Of a stretch of 56,721 nt of DNA, positions 15,550 through 25,038 are shown piece after piece. A model generated the notes under the pieces. It was not told where the DNA came from, made no database searches, and was given only the letters and a program-made list of their open reading frames with translations. The position numbers and the translations under genes were made by a program. The DNA is from an uncultured Nitrososphaerales archaeon (GTDB lineage: Archaea; Thermoproteota; Nitrososphaeria; Nitrososphaerales; Nitrosocaldaceae): positions 1 through 56,721 of the forward strand of contig CALHIV010000006.1 of the NCBI GenBank assembly GCA_938030895.1, given 5' to 3'. The number at the start of each line of letters is the position of its first letter. Positions within the stretch are counted from its first letter, which is position 1.

Positions 15550-15981
15550 ATGAAGAATAGTAGTAATAGCAAAAGTGGTGTAGTAAGGATCAGTATATCC
15601 CTCCCAGCAGATCTACTGACCAGTTTTGATAGAGTTAGTAGGAGGGTCGGCTTTACCGATAGATCAAAGGCTATACAGGCTGCTATTAGGGCATTCATAT
15701 CAGAGAATGAGTGGCTCTCTGGGAGTGAGTCTAGTAAGGGTGCTGGACTAATAGAACTCTTGTACGATCCACATACTAGGAATATAGAGAAGGCTCTAAC
15801 ACTAATACAGCATAACTACTATCATATAGTTACATCTAGTACACATATACACCTTGACGATGATAACTGCCTTGAGGCTATACTGGTGAGAGGGGATGTT
15901 AGGAGCATAAAGAAGCTTGCCAATAAGTTGGCAGAGAACAAGGGTATAAAGAGCATAAAGGTGAACTTCCAAGTGATATGA
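15550..15981 (+). CDS. nikR: NikR-type nickel-responsive regulator
   Basis: A ribbon-helix-helix DNA-binding domain (VVRISISLPADLLTSFDRVS, then DRSKAIQAAIRAFI) is fused to an ACT-like metal-sensing domain in 143 residues. The square-planar nickel ligands of NikR are all present with exact spacing: His88, His99, His101 and Cys107 match the H-x10-H-x-H-x5-C pattern of E. coli NikR. The gene converges on the metal importer operon, making that operon a likely target. NikR relatives can also respond to other divalent metals. The presence of the ligands is seen; which metal it senses in the cell is inferred. Confidence 0.88.
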   Translation: MKNSSNSKSGVVRISISLPADLLTSFDRVSRRVGFTDRSKAIQAAIRAFISENEWLSGSESSKGAGLIELLYDPHTRNIEKALTLIQHNYYHIVTSSTHIHLDDDNCLEAILVRGDVRSIKKLANKLAENKGIKSIKVNFQVI

Positions 15982-16021: not shown

Positions 16022-16927
16022 CTAGTTAATATGATGCTCGTGATCATGCTCTCCCTTATGTATATGCATATGTCTATGCCTTATCCTTCCATGTGAATGC
16101 TCATGATATACTCTATGCAATGATGTGTAGAGTACTACTGCTCCGAATACACCAGCACTAAACAGTACTATCGTTGCACCAGAGGCGGAGTCAAAGAGAA
16201 AGCTCAGATACATGCCTACAGATGCGGTTAGAGCACCGATCACTGTAGATAACACTATCAACCTGTTGAAGTTGTTCGTTAATAATCTAGCAGAGATTGT
16301 AGGAGCGACTATTGCTGCTGCAAGGAGTGTAACGCCTATTACATTCATTGATGCTATTATAACTATAGCAAGGAGTATAGAGAATGCTAGGTCTATAATA
16401 TCCGTCTTTACCCCATATACCCTTGCAGTCTCCCTATCGAACGTCATGAATAGTATCATCTTGTTAAGTAGGAAGAAGAATAGAAATACTACGATAGAGA
16501 CTAGTGCTATTACAAGCATATCCAGATATGTTATGCTCAGGATGTTACCGAAGAGCAGTGCCTCAAAGTTTCTAGTGAAACCCCTAGTACTACTTATTAG
16601 GAATATACCTATCGCAAATCCTGCTGTGCTTATAATGCCTATAGCAGCATCTGCCCTAACCTTACCACCATTGCTAACTCTGTTTATTATAATGCTAGAG
16701 ATCACGCCCCAGATTACTGCACCAATATACACGTTGATACTCAGCATATGGCTTACTACGGCACCACCAAAGACTGCATGTGATAGTCCATGGCCTATGT
16801 AACTCATGCCCCTCATCACTATATACACTCCAAGCAGACCATTCATCCCTCCTACAAGTATAGCAACTATGATGCCCCTGATGAAGAACTCGTATTGGAG
16901 TGGTTGGAACAGATTAAATTCGCTCAT
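16022..16927 (-). CDS. Metal ABC transporter permease (ZnuB/MntB type) with His-rich tail
   Basis: The membrane channel of a zinc/manganese-type importer, 301 residues with eight or nine hydrophobic helices. RGMSYIGHGLSHAVFGG and GVTLLAAAIVAPTISARLL are typical of the ABC-3 permease family. The last 30 residues (about 271-301) contain some 13 His mixed with Arg, Lys and Glu, a tail likely to bind divalent metal at the inner face. It ends a three-gene operon after the ATPase gene. The metal could be zinc, nickel or manganese. The His-rich tail fits zinc or nickel better. Confidence 0.9.
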   Translation of the reverse strand: MSEFNLFQPLQYEFFIRGIIVAILVGGMNGLLGVYIVMRGMSYIGHGLSHAVFGGAVVSHMLSINVYIGAVIWGVISSIIINRVSNGGKVRADAAIGIISTAGFAIGIFLISSTRGFTRNFEALLFGNILSITYLDMLVIALVSIVVFLFFFLLNKMILFMTFDRETARVYGVKTDIIDLAFSILLAIVIIASMNVIGVTLLAAAIVAPTISARLLTNNFNRLIVLSTVIGALTASVGMYLSFLFDSASGATIVLFSAGVFGAVVLYTSLHRVYHEHSHGRIRHRHMHIHKGEHDHEHHIN

Positions 16928-16945
16928 ATTAACTCCTTACTCACA

Positions 16946-17683
16946 TCACATCATAGAATCTATCAGGCCGTATACCTTTAGCAGGTTATCCCCTCTAAGT
17001 ATATCCTTAGCATCACCATCCGCCAGTATACGCTTATTAATGCATACTACTCTTGGGAGGTTCATCGCAACGCCAACTATATCATGAGTGCTAAGTATTA
17101 TGGTTGCTCCATCTCTATTAAGTTTATTCAATATCTTTAATATATCATCTCTAGTGCTAGGGTCTGCACCGGTTGTAGGCTCATCTAAGAGCAGTAACTC
17201 TGGCTCATGAACTATTGCTCTAGCAAGGAATACCCTCTTCTGCTCTCCTCCAGAGAGCTCCCTTATCTGCCTCTTTGCATTGCTGCTCATACCTAGATCC
17301 TCAAGTACCATATTCACCCTCTCCCTAACATACTTGCTAGGCCATGGCATCATCCCAGATCTATTCCATAGGCCGAGCGCTACAACCTCCTCTACTGTTA
17401 TAGGGAAGTCCCAATCTATGCTCTCTACCTGTGGCATATAGCCTATAACAGGCCTCTTGCCAAACTCTATAGATCCAAACCATGGCCTGATCAGCCCTGC
17501 TACTATCCTGAGTAGTGTACTCTTGCCAGAACCGTTTGGGCCTAGCAGGCCTATAACCTCTCCCTTCTTTACATCCAGATTTATATTCTCGAGTACAGGT
17601 ATACTAGTGTAGCCATAGGTTATACCTTTAATGCGTAACGCTATATCATCACCTCTACACATAAACCTTAACCACCATTGCAT
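16946..17683 (-). CDS. Metal ABC transporter ATPase
   Basis: The 245-residue ATPase powers the importer. It has Walker A GLLGPNGSGKSTLL, the Q-loop within YMPQVESIDWDFPITVEEVV (typical of ZnuC/MntA-like ATPases), signature LSGGEQKRVFLARAI, Walker B LLLLDEPTTGAD, and the switch His in LSTHD. The longest start overlaps the preceding gene by 16 nt. A Met seven codons in, at 17662, lies just after that gene's stop codon and is an equally good start. Confidence 0.92.
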   Translation of the reverse strand: MQWWLRFMCRGDDIALRIKGITYGYTSIPVLENINLDVKKGEVIGLLGPNGSGKSTLLRIVAGLIRPWFGSIEFGKRPVIGYMPQVESIDWDFPITVEEVVALGLWNRSGMMPWPSKYVRERVNMVLEDLGMSSNAKRQIRELSGGEQKRVFLARAIVHEPELLLLDEPTTGADPSTRDDILKILNKLNRDGATIILSTHDIVGVAMNLPRVVCINKRILADGDAKDILRGDNLLKVYGLIDSMM

Positions 17684-18693
17684 ACATCCCCTGCATCTAT
17701 ATCCTCTAGTGCATTAACATTGCCCCCTAGTGGTACTATCATGTTACGCATATTCTCTAGCATCATACCAATGTATGTATGGTTATAGTCTCCAACTCTG
17801 CCAGGTAGCACGTCATCTGCTAACGTCTCAACGATCTTGACACCTGCCTCTCTTGCTATCTGCTCCACAACCTTGCTTGGGAATACCTCAGATGCAAATA
17901 TTGCAGGAACTCTCTCTTCCCTTATCTGGTCTATTATCCTTGCAACCTCCTGGGGAGTAGGTTCGCCAAAGTCTGATGGTTGTACTGCTCCTATCACCTT
18001 CATCCCATAACGCTTAGCAAAGTATGCCCATGAGTCATGGTATGTTAGTAACTTTCTATTCTCTTCTGGTATACTCTGCACAGATCTCATTATACCTTCA
18101 TCCAGTGCCCTTAACCTTGCTATATAATGATCTGCATTACTTGCATAGTATGATGTATTCTCTGGATCCAACTCTATCAACTTATCCCTTATGAGTTCAA
18201 CGTACTTTATTGCATATGCAACGTTAAGCCATAGATGTGGGTTTGGATCTCCCTTCTCTTTAGGGAATGAGAAATCGAATATCCATTCATCTGGGGTTAT
18301 GGTGTTATCAGCAAGTTTAAGCAACTGTATCCTCGGATTATCTTCTCTAGACGCCTCTACCATCCTCTCCAACGAGACTTCTAAGTTAAGACCATTTATT
18401 ATGACAAGATCTGCACCCCTTATCTTTATCGAATCAGAAGGAATGGGTTCGAATGTATGAGAATCTACACCCTCTGGCACAATCCCTATAAGATCTACTC
18501 TATCGCATGCGACGTTCTTAACCATATTAGTTATGGGGGCTACAGATGTAATAACAGTAAGCCTATTATTGCTATCGGTAACTGAACTTATCCCTTCATT
18601 GTTAGTACTGATTGCCCCTATTAACAGAATAGCTGCTATACCTATACCTGTGATACCTATCACTATGGCAAGTAGCGATATTTTCATATACAT
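17668..18693 (-). CDS. Metal-binding lipoprotein-like receptor of the ABC importer (ZnuA/TroA type)
   Basis: The extracellular receptor of the importer, 341 residues. An N-terminal hydrophobic helix (residues 5-28) anchors it. Probable metal ligands are His79 (DSHTFEP), His153 (NPHLWLN), His219 (TYHDSWAYFAKRYG) and Glu269 (FASEVFP). A His at the third position is typical of zinc receptors, where manganese receptors have Glu. The His-rich loop of many ZnuA proteins is absent. It is first in the operon, and three AGTAATAC-type elements lie upstream at 18729-18811. Confidence 0.88.
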   Translation of the reverse strand: MYMKISLLAIVIGITGIGIAAILLIGAISTNNEGISSVTDSNNRLTVITSVAPITNMVKNVACDRVDLIGIVPEGVDSHTFEPIPSDSIKIRGADLVIINGLNLEVSLERMVEASREDNPRIQLLKLADNTITPDEWIFDFSFPKEKGDPNPHLWLNVAYAIKYVELIRDKLIELDPENTSYYASNADHYIARLRALDEGIMRSVQSIPEENRKLLTYHDSWAYFAKRYGMKVIGAVQPSDFGEPTPQEVARIIDQIREERVPAIFASEVFPSKVVEQIAREAGVKIVETLADDVLPGRVGDYNHTYIGMMLENMRNMIVPLGGNVNALEDIDAGDVCNGG

Positions 18694-18728
18694 GCCAACT
18701 ATATCCTAGTATTAAAATTTTATTGATT

Positions 18729-18811
18729 AGTAATACTGAATATATGATGGGTAGAGAATATATGATGAGTAGATATCGACTAAGTATTACTGATTTAACA
18801 TGAAGTAATAC
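18729..18811. promoter_or_regulatory. Three AGTAATAC elements before the metal importer operon
   Basis: AGTAATACT at 18729-18737, its inverted copy AGTATTACT at 18783-18791, and AGTAATAC at 18804-18811 lie within 90 nt upstream of the receptor gene. Repeated, partly inverted elements before a metal-uptake operon suggest an operator. The binding protein is unknown; NikR, encoded nearby, is one candidate. Confidence 0.4.
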
Positions 18812-18882: not shown

Positions 18883-20325
18883 TCAAAGAATCTGCTGTCT
18901 TCCTGCTATAGTACGTGCTAATAGAGATGTAACAGCAATTGCAGAGATCAATGCTATGAGCACATAACCTGGAAATTCTGGTACCACGTTCAGTCCAAAG
19001 ATCACTCTATCATCTTCACCATCAGCACCTATCTTAAGCACAACTGCGTAGGAGCCTCCTTCTGTAATCCTGTATTCAAGTTCATCCTTCCCGTCAGATA
19101 TCATCTCCTCTGCCACTATCCTATCCTGATTGTATATCATAAGTCGATAAGGTGCATCGATAACTTGATTCTTCTCTGCATCATATATCTTTATCCTGAA
19201 GACCGTTGGCTCATCTATGTTAGGTTGTACTGGAGCATATCTTATCTCTGCAAGGTACTTACCCTTCTCGCTCTTGAGTACCATAGCCTCTGCCCATCTA
19301 TTCTGCATCTCCTCTTCCTTGACCTCCTCGACCTTTCCTTTATCCTTCTCCTCCATAGGTTTGCCAACTACTAGGGTGTATACAACCTTATTCTTCTCCT
19401 CCTCATTTATCATCTCAGCCATCTTCACAAGTCTGCTCTTGACTATCATATAGTGTACTACTATATAATCCTCTGCAGCCCTATCTACGAACACACTGGC
19501 ATCTATCCCGTTTATATATCCCTTCATCTCCCTGTTTATCCAATCTGGGAACTCATCCTTGGGGATATAGTACTCAAAGTGCAGTAGTGGTATATCCTTC
19601 ACAAAGTCAGTACTCCAGTTAAAGTCTGATACACTCTCAACTATTATATTACCATCAGCATCTGTATACATCTTCAGATCCTTTATAACATCAAAGTACG
19701 ATATATACTCCATCACCCTCTTCTCCCCATTGTACTCAACGTCCCACGCACCTTGCTCAGATATGGTTATATAAGATACATATGTTACTGGCTCTGCAAG
19801 GAACCCTTCGCCTATACCTACAAGGTCTATATTAAATACATACAGACCCGCATCGATAAGAACTGGTCCATGTACTGTGATGTCTTTACCATCCTCTGTA
19901 CGCATATAGCCCATATTAGGCATGGTCTCTCCTTCTATCATAACCTCTTTCATCTCTGGATCTGGTTTGAATATTATCTTCAATGTATCCTGATCTGGCA
20001 TTATATGGAACCTCTCATTAAGTTGATGCTCGTTGGTGCCAAACTTTGTGATCTTTATATCATACACTATTGTACCCTCTATCACCTCATCTGTATTAAC
20101 ATCTATGGCCTTGATAGTGAATGTCATATCAACAAGCTCTCCTGCTCTCCTCACCTCTGGCTCAAGCCTTAGATCGAGGGAGATGGATCTGCCATCTACG
20201 TCCTTTGGTCCTACAGTCTCTTTACCCATACCATGACCATATACCTGCACTACTGAGATGCTTGAAGCGGTTAATAGCAGAGTTACTACAGAAATTATTG
20301 CCATCAGTATGGAAACTCTCCTCAT
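18883..20325 (-). CDS. Exported surface protein with PEFG-type C-terminus
   Basis: The 480-residue protein has a signal peptide (about residues 1-30) and then HGMGKE, as in several exported thaumarchaeal proteins. A long beta-rich ectodomain follows, with no Cys in its core and many charged residues. It ends with the sorting-type signal VVPEFPGYVLIALISAIAV, followed by SLLAR and a short basic tail. This matches the PEFG-CTERM pattern that archaeosortase-like enzymes are thought to process. Segments rich in Met, such as ETMPNMGYMRTEDG, could bind metal. The first part (VDMTFTIKAIDVNTDEVIEG) looks like an immunoglobulin-like domain. Function is unknown. It shares its neighbourhood with the two HPMPGG proteins. 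Confidence 0.75.
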   Translation of the reverse strand: MRRVSILMAIISVVTLLLTASSISVVQVYGHGMGKETVGPKDVDGRSISLDLRLEPEVRRAGELVDMTFTIKAIDVNTDEVIEGTIVYDIKITKFGTNEHQLNERFHIMPDQDTLKIIFKPDPEMKEVMIEGETMPNMGYMRTEDGKDITVHGPVLIDAGLYVFNIDLVGIGEGFLAEPVTYVSYITISEQGAWDVEYNGEKRVMEYISYFDVIKDLKMYTDADGNIIVESVSDFNWSTDFVKDIPLLHFEYYIPKDEFPDWINREMKGYINGIDASVFVDRAAEDYIVVHYMIVKSRLVKMAEMINEEEKNKVVYTLVVGKPMEEKDKGKVEEVKEEEMQNRWAEAMVLKSEKGKYLAEIRYAPVQPNIDEPTVFRIKIYDAEKNQVIDAPYRLMIYNQDRIVAEEMISDGKDELEYRITEGGSYAVVLKIGADGEDDRVIFGLNVVPEFPGYVLIALISAIAVTSLLARTIAGRQQIL

Positions 20326-20477
20326 ATGTAATTATCTGCTTTGGTCACTGTTTAAGGTTTATGGTACAAGGATAGAATTAGTAGATCGTGCAGGTTAGAT
20401 ATCATGCTAGAGAGTGTTTCTATAATAGGTGTATATGCAGATGATGTGATCACAAAAATATAAGAGGAGGTTCTGAT

Positions 20478-21581
20478 CTACTGTACTGTTCTTCTGTCTA
20501 TGCTCTTTATGCCCTTCCTTGCGTATAGGAGGAATGAGCCTAGAGCTGCGCCTATTAGCCCTATACTGCCTATGAGTACCTCTGGTACTACGTTGAATGA
20601 CATGATCTCAAAGTCTAGGCTATGGTAGCCATTTGTGCCATCGTAGAATGGCATTGGATGCCCACTGCACGCCAGTATGGTTAGATGTGTACCAGGTGGA
20701 AGGTTTGGTACTATTAGAGTTGCTGTAGCCTGGAGTTGACCAGGTTCAGTTAATCTTCCAGTGTTAGGATCTACCGTGCCTGCTATAAGCGTGGCTACAA
20801 CATCCTGATGGGATCCAACAAGATTACCTGTAGAGTCTATCCATGCTAGCCTTATCAAGCTCCAGCCACCAGGTCTATCACCTTCGTTAAGATACACGTT
20901 CACTGTAACACCTATTGATCCTCCTGGAAGTCCTTGTGTTGCCGATGGGATTATCTCTATTATCCTATCCCTCTCTGTATGGCATATAGAGACTTGGTAC
21001 TCTGCTACAGTATAGTTCATATCCATTCCTCCGCCTCCAGGCATTGGATGTGCAAAGCATGCTACAAGCCATATCTCTTCTCCTGGAAGGAGGTTATCAA
21101 CGGTTATGTTTGGTACTGGGAAGTTGCTGACTGTAGCAGTGCCTACACCGTTTGTCCAAGTTGCTATCAGTGGGGCACCGGGAATAGGTCTTGGAGATAC
21201 TGGAGTAAGGCTAGGATCATCTGCTGGACTATACCATACACCGCCATTCGCTATCCAGGAACCTGTTGAAGGCCTATACCAGGCAAAGGTTACATAACTG
21301 TACATGAACTCAAATATTGGCTGTGGCAGAATGCCTCCTGACTTGTTATAGTCTGCAGTAACCTTTACGAATGTTTTATCGCCAGGAAGCCCACCTGCTG
21401 GATGTAGGTCTAGACTAATGAATGTATCATTATATGCTCCGCAAAAGTTACCTAGTACATCACCAGGGGCGCCATGACCGCCATTGTAATGATCGCCATG
21501 ATCGCTGTCGGCAAATACATCAACGAAGGTACCTGTTATGAGTACGGCCACTATTATTGCTGCTACCTTGGACTGCATCAC
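20478..21581 (-). CDS. Exported protein with two HPMPGG repeat domains
   Basis: The 367-residue protein has a signal peptide (to about residue 25) followed by a short His-rich stretch (DSDHGDHYNGGHG). Two copies of a domain follow: residues 45-198, with Cys47 and the signature ACFAHPMPGGGGMDM at 174-188, and residues 199-330, with Cys200 and ACSGHPMP at 304-311. Each domain pairs an early Cys with a late Cys next to the His-Pro-Met, consistent with a disulfide beside a metal or ligand loop. The end is VVPEVLIGSIGLIGAALGSF plus a basic tail, a PEFG-like anchor without the FG. GTG at 21581 or the next ATG may start it; TTTAATAA lies about 27 nt upstream. I know no family with this domain. Confidence 0.75.
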   Translation of the reverse strand: MMQSKVAAIIVAVLITGTFVDVFADSDHGDHYNGGHGAPGDVLGNFCGAYNDTFISLDLHPAGGLPGDKTFVKVTADYNKSGGILPQPIFEFMYSYVTFAWYRPSTGSWIANGGVWYSPADDPSLTPVSPRPIPGAPLIATWTNGVGTATVSNFPVPNITVDNLLPGEEIWLVACFAHPMPGGGGMDMNYTVAEYQVSICHTERDRIIEIIPSATQGLPGGSIGVTVNVYLNEGDRPGGWSLIRLAWIDSTGNLVGSHQDVVATLIAGTVDPNTGRLTEPGQLQATATLIVPNLPPGTHLTILACSGHPMPFYDGTNGYHSLDFEIMSFNVVPEVLIGSIGLIGAALGSFLLYARKGIKSIDRRTVQ

Positions 21582-21659
21582 ATCTATTACCTCTCCAAGC
21601 TTATTAAAACTTATGGTACAATCATCAAAAATATGAAATAATTCTAGAACAAATCTCTA

Positions 21660-21784
21660 GTACAGTGATCTAACAAATAACTACATAAGATACCCCATAA
21701 ATAAATATTATCTATAATTCTGATTCCAATACTAGCTCGATATAAAGTAGATATTATATTAATCTCTAAATTCGATCACTGTAC
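21660..21784. promoter_or_regulatory. Divergent promoter region with an 11-bp inverted repeat
   Basis: GTACAGTGATC at 21660-21670 and its exact reverse complement GATCACTGTAC at 21774-21784 frame the region between the two divergent HPMPGG-protein genes. The right copy ends 8 nt before the plus-strand TATA box (TTTATATT, 21793-21800). The left copy lies upstream of the minus-strand TATA. Each is next to an AATCTCTA element. A related sequence (GGTCACTGTTT, 20343-20353) lies before the 480-residue surface protein. This arrangement is what a shared operator pair would look like. Confidence 0.45.
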
Positions 21785-21822
21785 TATAATGGTTTATATT
21801 TATTTCTAAAATTACAAACTCT

Positions 21823-24800
21823 GTGAAATTCTCAAGAGGAGGCGCCGTGATTATTGCATCTGCTATAACTGTAGCTGTTGTAGTAACACTACTCTTCACA
21901 ACATCTCAGATGAATAATATAACAATACCAAGAGAAGAGGGTAAACATAAGGGCGAGGGCTTATCTGAGAGTGTTAGTGTTGAAGAGAGGATTACAGTAG
22001 ATCTTAAGGTAAAGGAGGTTGAGGAGAAGGGTGAAGAGGAAGAGGAAGGGGAGAAGGGTATACAGCCGATCAAGAGTGATAAAGGAGAAGAGCCTACCAG
22101 ACCCTTAGGAGGTAGGAGTAGTACCTCATGCCTCTCCGTACAAGAGGGTAATGCGAACATACCTGAGGGCCTCACAGTCAACCTCTCACTCAACAAGAGT
22201 TATGGCGCGCCAAACAGTATGATACGTGCTGTAGCATCTCTAAGGAGCATGGATGAAAGTATAATATTCACACTTACACATGTAAGGTTTGCGTGGTTCT
22301 CTCTACATGATGGTCCTAAACAGTTATCAGAGTGGGAGGAGGTTAGAGTTCTATGGGACTACCTTGATGAGTATGTGGTAGGAGAAGTGGGGGTAAACAC
22401 TAGAGTGCCAGATATCCCTGCAGGTACAGATATTGTTATAGTTGCATGCTTGGTAGAGAGATCTCCTCTATCATATAAGGAGTTAGGGTTTGTAACTTAT
22501 AATTTTAGGGTTACTGCTGAAGAGAAGAGTATACCATACTATAGAGTAGATAGCATAGATGATCTCTACACTAAGGTCACTAAAGCAATACTAAACAAGG
22601 GTGTAAAGTTTGATGAGGAGAAGGTTAAGAGACTGCTAGATAAGGTTGTGAAACAGGCTGAAAGTAGTGAAGATGGTGAGATTCACGGTGAACCTACTAG
22701 CATAACTGTTAAGGAAGGCTCATACCTCTTCATTGATGTTGCTGAAGGCAGCCTATATGGTGTTGGATGCCTTACAAGTAATGTTGTAGTAAAGGAGGGT
22801 GATACTTTACGCTGCTTCTTCATAGGCTATGGTGAGAGCAACTATAATCTTAGGGTAGATGTTGTATATAGTAATGGAGAAACATTAACCATATTTGATG
22901 GTTTAGTAGATGATAGTGAGTTTACAAAGACATTCACTCATGTAGTTAATGGGAGTGGTGAAGGAAGAGTGCACATAATTGCAGTAGTTGATGATGAGCG
23001 TGCCATACTCGAGATCAGGCTTGATATCATCAAAGCACTAGATGTAAGAGGGTTATGCACCCCATGGGTAGAGAGAGATGTTAAGATAGTTCTTGAACCA
23101 ACATATGGGTTACCTGGGAGCGATGTAAGAGCGAGTATAGGGATAAGGATACTCCCTGAGGATGAGAGTATGAGATGGATGTTCGAGTACATCACAGTAA
23201 CATGGCTTGATGATGCTAATAGACCTATACCAACGTCGTGGATTCTTGCTGAGGATGATAGTATGAGAAGTAAGTGGAAGGAACCACTAAAGATAATCAA
23301 TTGGGATGATGGTGATGACGATATCTATACTGGTAGTACTAAGATACTACTCAAGGTTCCAGAAGTGGATATAGGGAGCAGGTTAAAATTGTTGGTATGT
23401 TTTGTGCACCCAATGCCTGGAGGCTACATGGATATGGTGAACAGTTATACAACATTCTATGTTGGTAGTGAGCCAAAGGAAGAGGAGGATAAGGTGAAGA
23501 AAGAGGAGGATAAACAGCAACAACAGCAAGGGCAGCAACAACAGCAACAGCAACAACAGCAACAAGTAGGCTCTATCCCATGTAGTATATACCCTGGAGG
23601 GGATAGACAGATAAACTTCTCCATCGATCCTAAGAGTGGTGCCTCTGGCTCATCTGTAAGAGTAAGCCTCACTGTAAGGGTAAACCCAGAGGATTACGGA
23701 GAACCATTCGATCCGACAAAGCACTGGAGATGGATGTACGAGGATGTAAAGTTCTTCTGGCTAGATGCTAATAACAATACCATAGACTCTATTGGGCCGC
23801 TCAAGGTTATACAGTGGAGTAAGAGTGATCCACTGTATGGTGAAGGAGTGTATAATCTAACAGTTCCTAGAGCACAGAGTAATACTGCAAAGATAGTTGC
23901 TTGCTTTATGCATCCTATGCCTGGGGGCTTCATGGAGATGACCTACAGGATGGAGAACTTTACCATAATAGATGCTACTCCTGCAGGAGGTCAACAGCAA
24001 CAACAGCAACAACAGCAAGGGCAGCAACAACAGCAACAGCAAGAGCAAGGACAACAAGAGCAAGAAAAGGGTAGAATAGAACCGATCGACTTTGATATAG
24101 GAGAGATATGTGGTAAGTACACTGGTGATAGGGAGTTCATCTCCATGAGTATTAAGCCAAATGCTGACTCTATCACTACATCAATAATGGTAACGCTTGA
24201 TAGCGATGATCCCAATCTCGAGATCTGGAAGTTCATGTACAGTTACATAAAGTTCAGATGGTACAACTACTCTACCAAAGCATATATTAGTGATTGGATA
24301 CCATCATCTCCACAGCAATTGATAAAGGAGTGGGATAGTGAAGGCAGTAAGGTTATCGGAAGGGCAGAGTATACACTCGTACTGCCAGAAGCCTCCCCTG
24401 GTAGCAGACTAGGGTTAATAGCATGCTTCTCCCATCCATGGCCTGGACCAACAGGGTATATGGATATGAACTATACTGTTACTGCATATATAAAACCAAC
24501 TGAGTACTATAGGCTAGAAAGCATAAACGATCTTGATAGAGTAGCAAAGGATCTATTATCCCCTCTTGATGGTGAGAAGGCTGATAGTATATCTGCTACT
24601 ATAAATAGGATTGAGCCTAGGCTAGATAAAGATGCCAGATATCTTCTCATAGATGTAAAGAAAGGTAGTATATACCTCCTAGCATGTCTGCTAAGGGATA
24701 TGCCAGTTAATATAGGCGACTCTATACAATGCATAGCAGTAACTGATATGGCTATAGATAGGATCAGTATAACATCAGTAGCCCCAGACTGGACCTTCAT

Positions 24801-25038
24801 AAGGAAGGGTTACAATATGGAGGAGGTTGAGGGGAACAGGGTAACTATAGCAGATATTACGCTTGATAGAGCAGGGGATTGGACTATTCTGGCTGAGTTT
24901 GGTGATGGTGAAACGGCATCTATAAAGGCTAGTGTTGCATTTAACGTTATACCAGAAGGGATACTGGGTGTAATAGCAATAATCGTTACCATGCTTACAA
25001 CTACAGTACTCTATCTCAGAGCCGTAACCAGATTATAG
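21823..25038 (+). CDS. Giant exported protein with four HPMPGG-type domains and Q-rich linkers
   Basis: The 1071-residue protein has a signal/anchor helix (residues 7-27) and a Glu/Lys-rich stalk (50-92). Domain A occurs four times: about 100-232 (Cys103...ACLVERSP, loop lost), 410-547 (CFVHPMPGGYMDM), 584-716 (ACFMHPMPGGFMEM) and 760-889 (ACFSHPWPGPTGYMDM). Domain B occurs twice (about 238-390 and 894-1045); each begins YYR-(V/L)-(D/E)-SI and has two Cys 15 residues apart (316/331 and 954/969). Glutamine runs at 565-581 and 724-748 link A2-A3 and A3-A4. The end, VIPEGILGVIAIIVTMLTT plus Arg, is a PEFG-like anchor. GTG start with a TATA box 23-30 nt upstream. Confidence 0.78.
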   Translation: MKFSRGGAVIIASAITVAVVVTLLFTTSQMNNITIPREEGKHKGEGLSESVSVEERITVDLKVKEVEEKGEEEEEGEKGIQPIKSDKGEEPTRPLGGRSSTSCLSVQEGNANIPEGLTVNLSLNKSYGAPNSMIRAVASLRSMDESIIFTLTHVRFAWFSLHDGPKQLSEWEEVRVLWDYLDEYVVGEVGVNTRVPDIPAGTDIVIVACLVERSPLSYKELGFVTYNFRVTAEEKSIPYYRVDSIDDLYTKVTKAILNKGVKFDEEKVKRLLDKVVKQAESSEDGEIHGEPTSITVKEGSYLFIDVAEGSLYGVGCLTSNVVVKEGDTLRCFFIGYGESNYNLRVDVVYSNGETLTIFDGLVDDSEFTKTFTHVVNGSGEGRVHIIAVVDDERAILEIRLDIIKALDVRGLCTPWVERDVKIVLEPTYGLPGSDVRASIGIRILPEDESMRWMFEYITVTWLDDANRPIPTSWILAEDDSMRSKWKEPLKIINWDDGDDDIYTGSTKILLKVPEVDIGSRLKLLVCFVHPMPGGYMDMVNSYTTFYVGSEPKEEEDKVKKEEDKQQQQQGQQQQQQQQQQQVGSIPCSIYPGGDRQINFSIDPKSGASGSSVRVSLTVRVNPEDYGEPFDPTKHWRWMYEDVKFFWLDANNNTIDSIGPLKVIQWSKSDPLYGEGVYNLTVPRAQSNTAKIVACFMHPMPGGFMEMTYRMENFTIIDATPAGGQQQQQQQQQGQQQQQQQEQGQQEQEKGRIEPIDFDIGEICGKYTGDREFISMSIKPNADSITTSIMVTLDSDDPNLEIWKFMYSYIKFRWYNYSTKAYISDWIPSSPQQLIKEWDSEGSKVIGRAEYTLVLPEASPGSRLGLIACFSHPWPGPTGYMDMNYTVTAYIKPTEYYRLESINDLDRVAKDLLSPLDGEKADSISATINRIEPRLDKDARYLLIDVKKGSIYLLACLLRDMPVNIGDSIQCIAVTDMAIDRISITSVAPDWTFIRKGYNMEEVEGNRVTIADITLDRAGDWTILAEFGDGETASIKASVAFNVIPEGILGVIAIIVTMLTTTVLYLRAVTRL
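23515..23566. repeat. CAA/CAG repeat encoding a Gln linker
   Basis: An almost pure CAA/CAG run inside the 1071-residue surface protein encodes Gln with one Gly. Mixed codon use (CAA and CAG) suggests the protein-level linker is selected. The repeat could change length by slippage. Confidence 0.8.
23992..24066. repeat. Second CAA/CAG repeat encoding a Gln/Glu linker
   Basis: A second Gln-rich linker in the same gene, less pure (Gly and Glu codons are mixed in). It separates the third and fourth copies of domain A. Its antisense frames read as poly-Leu/Cys and are artefacts. Confidence 0.8.

Follow-up and report, generated by a model that had tools for sequence, protein, structure and literature searches.

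A genus-specific surface domain with an unusual His/Met hairpin in Nitrosocaldus, a possible copper-binding clip

CopC (PF04234), including the CopC-CopD fusions of ammonia-oxidizing archaea, is an exported beta-sandwich tied to copper, with His and, in some members, Met ligands. In PCuAC (PF04314) and CusF (PF11604), His and Met residues on beta strands hold Cu(I), in CusF next to a Trp. The cupredoxins (PF00127) are Greek-key sandwiches, and in plastocyanin and amicyanin Cys, His, and Met follow in succession at the end of the penultimate strand. Copper enzymes drive the energy metabolism of ammonia-oxidizing archaea, which makes these organisms heavily dependent on the metal; their extracellular copper gathering is not well understood (PMC7785015). 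In Nitrososphaera viennensis, the CopC/D genes rise under copper limitation, and the CopC part lacks a Met-rich Cu(I) region (PMC7785015).

A repeated domain confined to one genus

The window, a stretch of 56,721 nucleotides, is part of a 1.37-Mb genome of Nitrosocaldus, a genus of thermophilic ammonia-oxidizing archaea, and was compared across six species of the genus, including Ca. Nitrosocaldus schleperae and Nitrosocaldus sp. SKYG19. The gene order is NikR (plus strand), ZnuB-ZnuC-ZnuA (minus), A480 (minus), B367 (minus), C1071 (plus, divergent from B367), and a TenA-like gene. An earlier note on this DNA had proposed that two genes share one domain in six copies. Both open reading frames are present, and pairwise BLAST comparisons reached E values down to 1e-20. 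The domain is about 135 residues long and is arranged as follows.

18883-20325, minus strand: A480, exported protein without the domain, syntenic with it (weak PEFG-CTERM)
20478-21581, minus strand: B367, exported, C-terminally anchored, with domains B1 and B2 (open reading frame, two domain copies)
20988-21449, minus strand: domain B1, residues 45-198 (BLAST/profile copies, model)
20589-20987, minus strand: domain B2, residues 199-331 (BLAST/profile copies, model)
21823-25038, plus strand: C1071, exported, C-terminally anchored, with domains C1-C4, two D modules, and poly-Gln linkers (open reading frame, domain copies)
22123-22518, plus strand: domain C1, residues 101-232, His/Met residues lost, both Cys kept (BLAST copies, alignment)
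22519-23049, plus strand: module D1, residues 233-409, repeated as D2 (BLAST of D1 against D2, E 5e-10)
23050-23469, plus strand: domain C2, residues 410-549; hairpin at 23398-23436, CFVHPMPGGYMDM; Met453 at 23179-23181
23575-23976, plus strand: domain C3, residues 585-718, the modelled domain; hairpin at 23902-23940, CFMHPMPGGFMEM; Met638 at 23734-23736
24103-24504, plus strand: domain C4, residues 761-894; hairpin at 24424-24468, CFSHPWPGPTGYMDM; Met805 at 24235-24237
24505-24957, plus strand: module D2, residues 895-1045, followed by the C-terminal membrane segment (VIPEGILG...) (BLAST against D1)

All six copies in the window have both the early Cys and the one in the ACF motif, as had been claimed. 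The characteristic loop, described earlier as a feature of the copies, has the form HPM/HPW...M[DE]M in four of the six (B1, C2, C3, and C4, the last reading HPWPG as reported), but B2 carries a variant, CSGHPMPFYDGTNGYHSLDF, with His in place of the Met of the other copies, and C1 (A1 in the earlier note) has indeed lost it, reading CLVERSPLSYKELGF. A480 lacks the loop, in agreement with the earlier description. The duplicated D1/D2 module of C1071 is an addition to that description. In the C1071 of SKYG19 (L035:13020-16256), poly-Gly stands in place of the second poly-Gln linker; the conserved feature is therefore only a flexible spacer.

The domain had been said to belong to no named family, and searches of Pfam, NCBIfam, and PDB sequence families with the whole proteins and 21 domain copies gave no family match; the nearest Pfam entry was the Ig-like family Big_3_5, at a sub-threshold E of 0.013. 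A profile of the six copies retrieved a seventh (group s), a single-domain protein of about 200 residues encoded in the window genome (G000:C11 132350-132748) and in the sister species, and a looser paralogue group (t) is present in two species. In another species (genome G001), the group s paralogue is split across two reading frames (L045, G001:C1:1571693-1572095), and this species seems to be without an intact copy bearing the His hairpin. With a 21-row profile run against 400 genomes of the class and 398 of the phylum, the family was confined to Nitrosocaldus, so that the suggested restriction to Nitrososphaeria narrows to one genus. Two matches in other genera (E 0.03-0.04) and two in other families of the phylum (E 0.006) were left uncounted and look like generic Ig similarity. 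The expectation that homologues would lie beside metal importers was not supported: the window genes adjoin an importer, and the solitary paralogue adjoins none.

The order NikR-ZnuBCA-A480-B367-C1071 recurs in three more Nitrosocaldus species, with identities of 52-78% for the A, B, and C proteins. Because of this conservation, the cluster is not due to chance or to an assembly artefact. B367 is retained in four of the six genomes. The other two species keep NikR, ZnuABC, and TenA, have no A480 or B367, and live without B and C; in both, C1071 is reduced to a 3' remnant between ZnuA and TenA (L062:8498-8710 and L063:10880-11353). The loss of A and B from two species, with C left as a remnant, indicates that A480, B367, and C1071 are a dispensable set that was probably already in the genus ancestor.

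Predicted fold and the His/Met hairpin

AlphaFold2 models were obtained for domain C3 with 18 related alignment rows (pLDDT 85.4, pTM 0.81) and for B1-B2 with 11 rows (pLDDT 84.8, pTM 0.68), the two alignments sharing part of their rows. A common beta-sandwich, which the earlier note had raised as a possibility, was predicted as an Ig-like fold. The C3 model has seven strands (15-20, 29-37, 59-65, 71-79, 90-98, 106-117, and 120-133) arranged in Ig order, strands B and C being joined through a helix, and the loop of the earlier note corresponds to its F-G hairpin. Foldseek searches against the PDB returned generic Ig/E-set matches only, the best for C3 having an E of 5e-4 and a TM score of about 0.4-0.5. 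The top 50 PDB fold matches of each model included neither a cupredoxin nor CopC.

These results can be set against the described families. The domain resembles CopC as an exported beta-sandwich whose associated A480-family genes adjoin CopC genes, but its site lies on the F-G hairpin, and it occurs in tandem copies on anchored proteins. A mature N-terminal His ligand, as in CopC, is absent, the domains starting with Cys-x-x, and PF04234 matched none of the 21 domain copies at E<=5, with a library that does find CopC at loci of A480 relatives. The ligand logic is similar to that of PCuAC and CusF; Pfam gave no match to PF04314 or PF11604 in the domain copies, and neither protein appeared among the 50 best PDB fold matches of C3. 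The domain shares with cupredoxins a Cys-x-x-His followed by Met at the same end of the sandwich, but its Cys belongs to a conserved Cys pair, and the upstream His ligand is absent, since the column scan found one invariant His per domain in Met-type copies. No significant cupredoxin profile match, and no fold match to rank 50, was found. Bacterial Ig-like domains such as Big_3_5 (PF16640) probably have a common fold with it, three copies giving weak sub-threshold matches, and we know of no His/Met hairpin of this kind among them. B367 and C1071 follow the export and C-terminal anchoring style of the PEFG-CTERM surface proteins of Nitrososphaeria (TIGR04296) but carry only a degenerate PE motif; they gave no match to this model and A480 gave 16.3 bits, below the cut-off of 25 bits, and the tail signal is uninformative about the domain. 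By these profile, fold, and ligand comparisons the domain does not fall among the cupredoxins, CopC, PCuAC, or CusF, and a resemblance in working principle remains.

The following features make up the proposed site in B367; after this list, positions are given in the numbering of the C3 model.

21018-21059, minus strand: F-G hairpin of B1, CFAHPMPGGGGMDM, with His178, Met180, Met186, and Met188
21303-21305, minus strand: Met93 of B1, equivalent to position 56, in the B-C helix; found only alongside the H..M..M hairpin type
20616-20669, minus strand: F-G hairpin of B2, CSGHPMPFYDGTNGYHSL, with His308, Met310, and His320

The hairpin strands span 106-117 and 120-133 in C3, 126-137 and 143-155 in B1, and 257-267 and 277-289 in B2 (model numbering). 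With the register read from the strand ends, 115 lies opposite 122 and 116 opposite 121 in all three modelled hairpins, and this register is unchanged by a spacing between 117 and 122 of 4 (C3), 5 (B1), or 9 (B2) residues. The models would thus place 113, 115, 117, 122, and 124 on one face, and Cys112 and Asp/Glu123 on the other. The proposal that His and Met cluster is borne out in the models by their position on one face of one hairpin. The Asp, which had been counted as part of the site, falls away, with Asp/Glu predicted on the opposite face and replaced by Ser or Trp in paralogues that keep the His.

An alignment of 31 copies in eight paralogue groups places His115 in six of the groups. 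Of these six, B1, C2, C3, and C4 have Met at residue 122, and B2 and s have His; at residue 117, Met is present in B1, B2, C2, and C3, His in s, and Trp in C4. The stretch between 117 and 122 varies from 4 to 10 residues across the alignment. The core comprises three residues: His115, Met/His122, and between them Met/His117, which is Trp in one copy. In C1 all three have been lost together, and Glu, Ser/Gly, and Lys/Arg stand in their places (115, 117, and 122). Group t has Ser/Thr at 115 and Asn at 117; its hairpin alignment is uncertain, and one alignment puts His at 122. A scan of all columns for His or Met invariant within paralogue groups ranked 122, 115, and 117 at the top, followed by 124 and 56, against a His plus Met content of 5.2% of residues. 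Met56 and Met124 are restricted to the four groups that have Met at 122 (B1, C2, C3, C4), where 56, 115, 117, 122, and 124 are invariant over four species, as compared with 41-63% of residues overall. The link between His115 and His/Met122 has a Fisher probability of 0.036 for a small sample of eight groups chosen after inspection. Met56 sits on the helix that forms the B-C connection, and in the Ig topology this connection shares its end of the sandwich with the F-G hairpin. Met56 and Met124 would also fit plain core packing, since 124 is Leu, Phe, or Tyr in other groups. The Cys of ACF and the second Cys are retained together even where His and Met are lost (C1 and group t), and this structural behaviour points to a disulfide, as had been considered probable.

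Neighbouring importer and promoter elements

Upstream features of the cluster and the promoter elements of the surface genes are listed below.

15550-15981, plus strand: NikR with all four nickel ligands (His, HxH, Cys) (Pfam, alignment)
16022-18693, minus strand: ZnuA-ZnuC-ZnuB type metal ABC importer, predicted for nickel (Pfam, operators, orthologue beside urease)
18709-18736, no strand assigned: predicted NikR operator GTATTA-N16-TAATAC upstream of znuA
18784-18811, no strand assigned: second predicted NikR operator GTATTA-N16-TAATAC upstream of znuA
20359-20368, minus strand: TGTACCATAA element, 43 bp upstream of the A480 start
21611-21620, minus strand: TGTACCATAA element, 39 bp upstream of the B367 start
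21780-21789, plus strand: TGTACTATAA element, 43 bp upstream of the C1071 start

The NikR protein matches NikR_C (PF08753, E 2.9e-27) and conserves QH, HIH, and C, corresponding to the His, His-x-His, and Cys that are the four nickel ligands of E. coli NikR. The 28-bp inverted repeat GTATTA-N16-TAATAC occurs exactly twice in the whole genome, both times upstream of znuA; each of the six Nitrosocaldus species retains it, as does the sister genus. In length and layout it agrees with the published NikR signal of enterobacteria, the 27-28 bp inverted repeat GTATGAT-N13/14-ATCATAC (PMC545781). Since the nickel ligands of NikR are kept and the operators lie at znuA, the importer appears to be nickel-regulated, a concrete operator accounting for this neighbour, and very probably serves nickel. 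An orthologous importer adjoins urease genes in a soil ammonia oxidizer. Urease was nevertheless rejected as the purpose of the importer in this genus, as three of the four species with A, B, and C lack it. The importer was likewise rejected as a ground for copper because the operators fit NikR, and nickel is the sole metal with regulatory evidence at this locus.

No NikR operator (GTATTA-N16-TAATAC) precedes A480, B367, or C1071. Their promoters have in common TGTAC[CT]ATAA, 39-43 bp before the start codons, and the three genes therefore look separately controlled. The element occurs 19 times in the genome, compared with 11 for the reversed control, so that most copies are chance occurrences, and only the sites ahead of A, B, C, and one further exported protein are informative. 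That other site (G000:C15:17687-17696, L095), the only such case just ahead of an exported-protein start codon, precedes a protein that looks like an NHL/beta-propeller and possibly belongs to the same regulon.

Candidate roles of the hairpin

The well-conserved, genus-specific surface domain with its unusual His/Met hairpin is real, and copper is the metal that we prefer for it. What the sequences and models show is a repeated domain, its conservation pattern and synteny, and a predicted fold with its hairpin register; from these we infer that the hairpin likely binds metal, because His and Met interchange at fixed facing positions, the turn length is free, and the core residues are lost jointly. 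Met favours soft metals. Copper is our first choice owing to the Met-type ligands and to the export of the protein by a copper-dependent ammonia oxidizer, an argument from coordination chemistry and biology. In the proposed arrangement, the F-G hairpin, at the tip of each active domain, would carry a clip to which strand F contributes His115 and Met/His117 and strand G the facing Met/His122; in four copies, Met124 together with Met56 from the B-C helix would probably complete it. The clip would most likely bind Cu(I) in the copies rich in Met and perhaps Cu(II) in those rich in His. Together, the five clips of B367 and C1071 may serve to trap or buffer copper outside the cytoplasm and pass it on, possibly to A480 or to copper enzymes. 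That these are surface-anchored, genus-specific Ig-like proteins with clips most likely for copper, serving as such a trap or buffer, we propose tentatively, at slightly less than an even chance. A broader formulation is possible, with a somewhat lower probability: a new extracytoplasmic copper protein family, built on an Ig-like F-G hairpin clip (His-x-Met/His plus a cross-strand Met/His) and multiplied in one thermophilic genus to give a multivalent trap on the cell surface, would supply the Cu(I) handling that CopC there lacks. A literature search on methionine-rich proteins and copper in ammonia-oxidizing archaea yielded nothing. The 135-residue domain, with C1 as a built-in negative control whose ligands are lost, is directly expressible and titratable.

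The main rival takes the domain as an ordinary Ig-like surface or adhesion module, in which the Met residues cover the end of the sandwich as hydrophobic caps, the His is structural, and no metal is bound. The generic Ig/E-set fold and the weak Big_3_5 match agree with it, as do the exchange of Met124 for Leu, Phe, or Tyr elsewhere and the long poly-Gln linkers and C-terminal anchors typical of surface proteins. Hydrophobic capping does not readily explain why Met122 changes to His rather than to Leu or Ile in two paralogue groups, why the groups that keep His115 always have His or Met at 122 and His, Met, or (in one copy) Trp at 117, why C1 lost all three core residues at once, or why the conserved set is independent of hairpin length; we consider this rival rather unlikely. 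The same core pattern weighs on a sacrificial role, in which Met-rich hairpins on the cell surface would scavenge reactive oxygen or nitrogen species without metal. Ammonia oxidation in this organism yields reactive nitrogen compounds, and three to four Met sit at the tip of each active domain, but the invariant His115 and the change from Met to His at 122 and 117 would be left unexplained, which makes such a role very improbable.

Among metal-based rivals, surface capture of nickel to feed the neighbouring ZnuABC importer under NikR control draws on the synteny in four species, the NikR with its full ligand set, the sole exact operator pair of the genome at znuA, the orthologous importer beside urease genes, and a [NiFe]-hydrogenase gene in five of the six species. 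Against it, Met is a poor nickel ligand, A, B, and C share a different element in place of the NikR operator, two species retain the importer and operators without A, B, or C, urease is absent from the window genome and two others carrying B and C, and the solitary paralogue is distant from the importer. We judge nickel capture improbable. A type 1 copper site with the Cys and His of C-F-x-H as ligands is hardly credible: the Cys-His-Met succession at the penultimate strand end recalls plastocyanin and amicyanin, but copies that lack the His/Met still have the Cys, which has a second invariant Cys as its counterpart and is most likely in a disulfide, the conserved upstream His is absent, and no cupredoxin appears among the Pfam hits or the first 50 PDB fold matches of the two models. 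With no second His and a paired Cys, cupredoxin identity was rejected.

The suggestion of copper or another soft metal thus stands in part: copper is still likeliest from the ligands and the A480 family, but the adjacent importer gives it no support. No copper genes are present in the immediate neighbourhood of the window cluster. A480 (480 residues) has a likely mature N-terminus of HGMG, and most members of its family, found in 20 of 61 genomes of the order and in four families only, seem to begin with His-Gly after the signal peptide (likely HG[LMFV]). This His-headed surface protein family is wide among ammonia oxidizers and recurs beside metal importers and CopC/CopD genes. A480 relatives (L066, L067, L118, L119, L124) adjoin CopC-CopD fusions, cytochrome oxidase, or ZnuABC with a NikR-like regulator, the fusions being neighbours in Nitrosocaldus and in two further ammonia-oxidizing archaeal families. 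In N. schleperae and G001, two paralogues have as neighbours cytochrome oxidase subunit I, a cupredoxin, and a CopC-CopD-YtkA fusion. In a different family of the order, two genomes show the gene order CopC/CopD fusion, ZnuBCA, a NikR-like regulator with one nickel ligand lost, and an A480 relative. By gene neighbourhood, A480-type proteins appear linked to both copper genes and metal importers, a link that does not prove copper for B and C. A480 itself contains a conserved Met-rich stretch, GETMPNMGYMRT, and an FHIMPDQDT segment, both of which set it apart from the CopC-linked paralogues, where they are absent.
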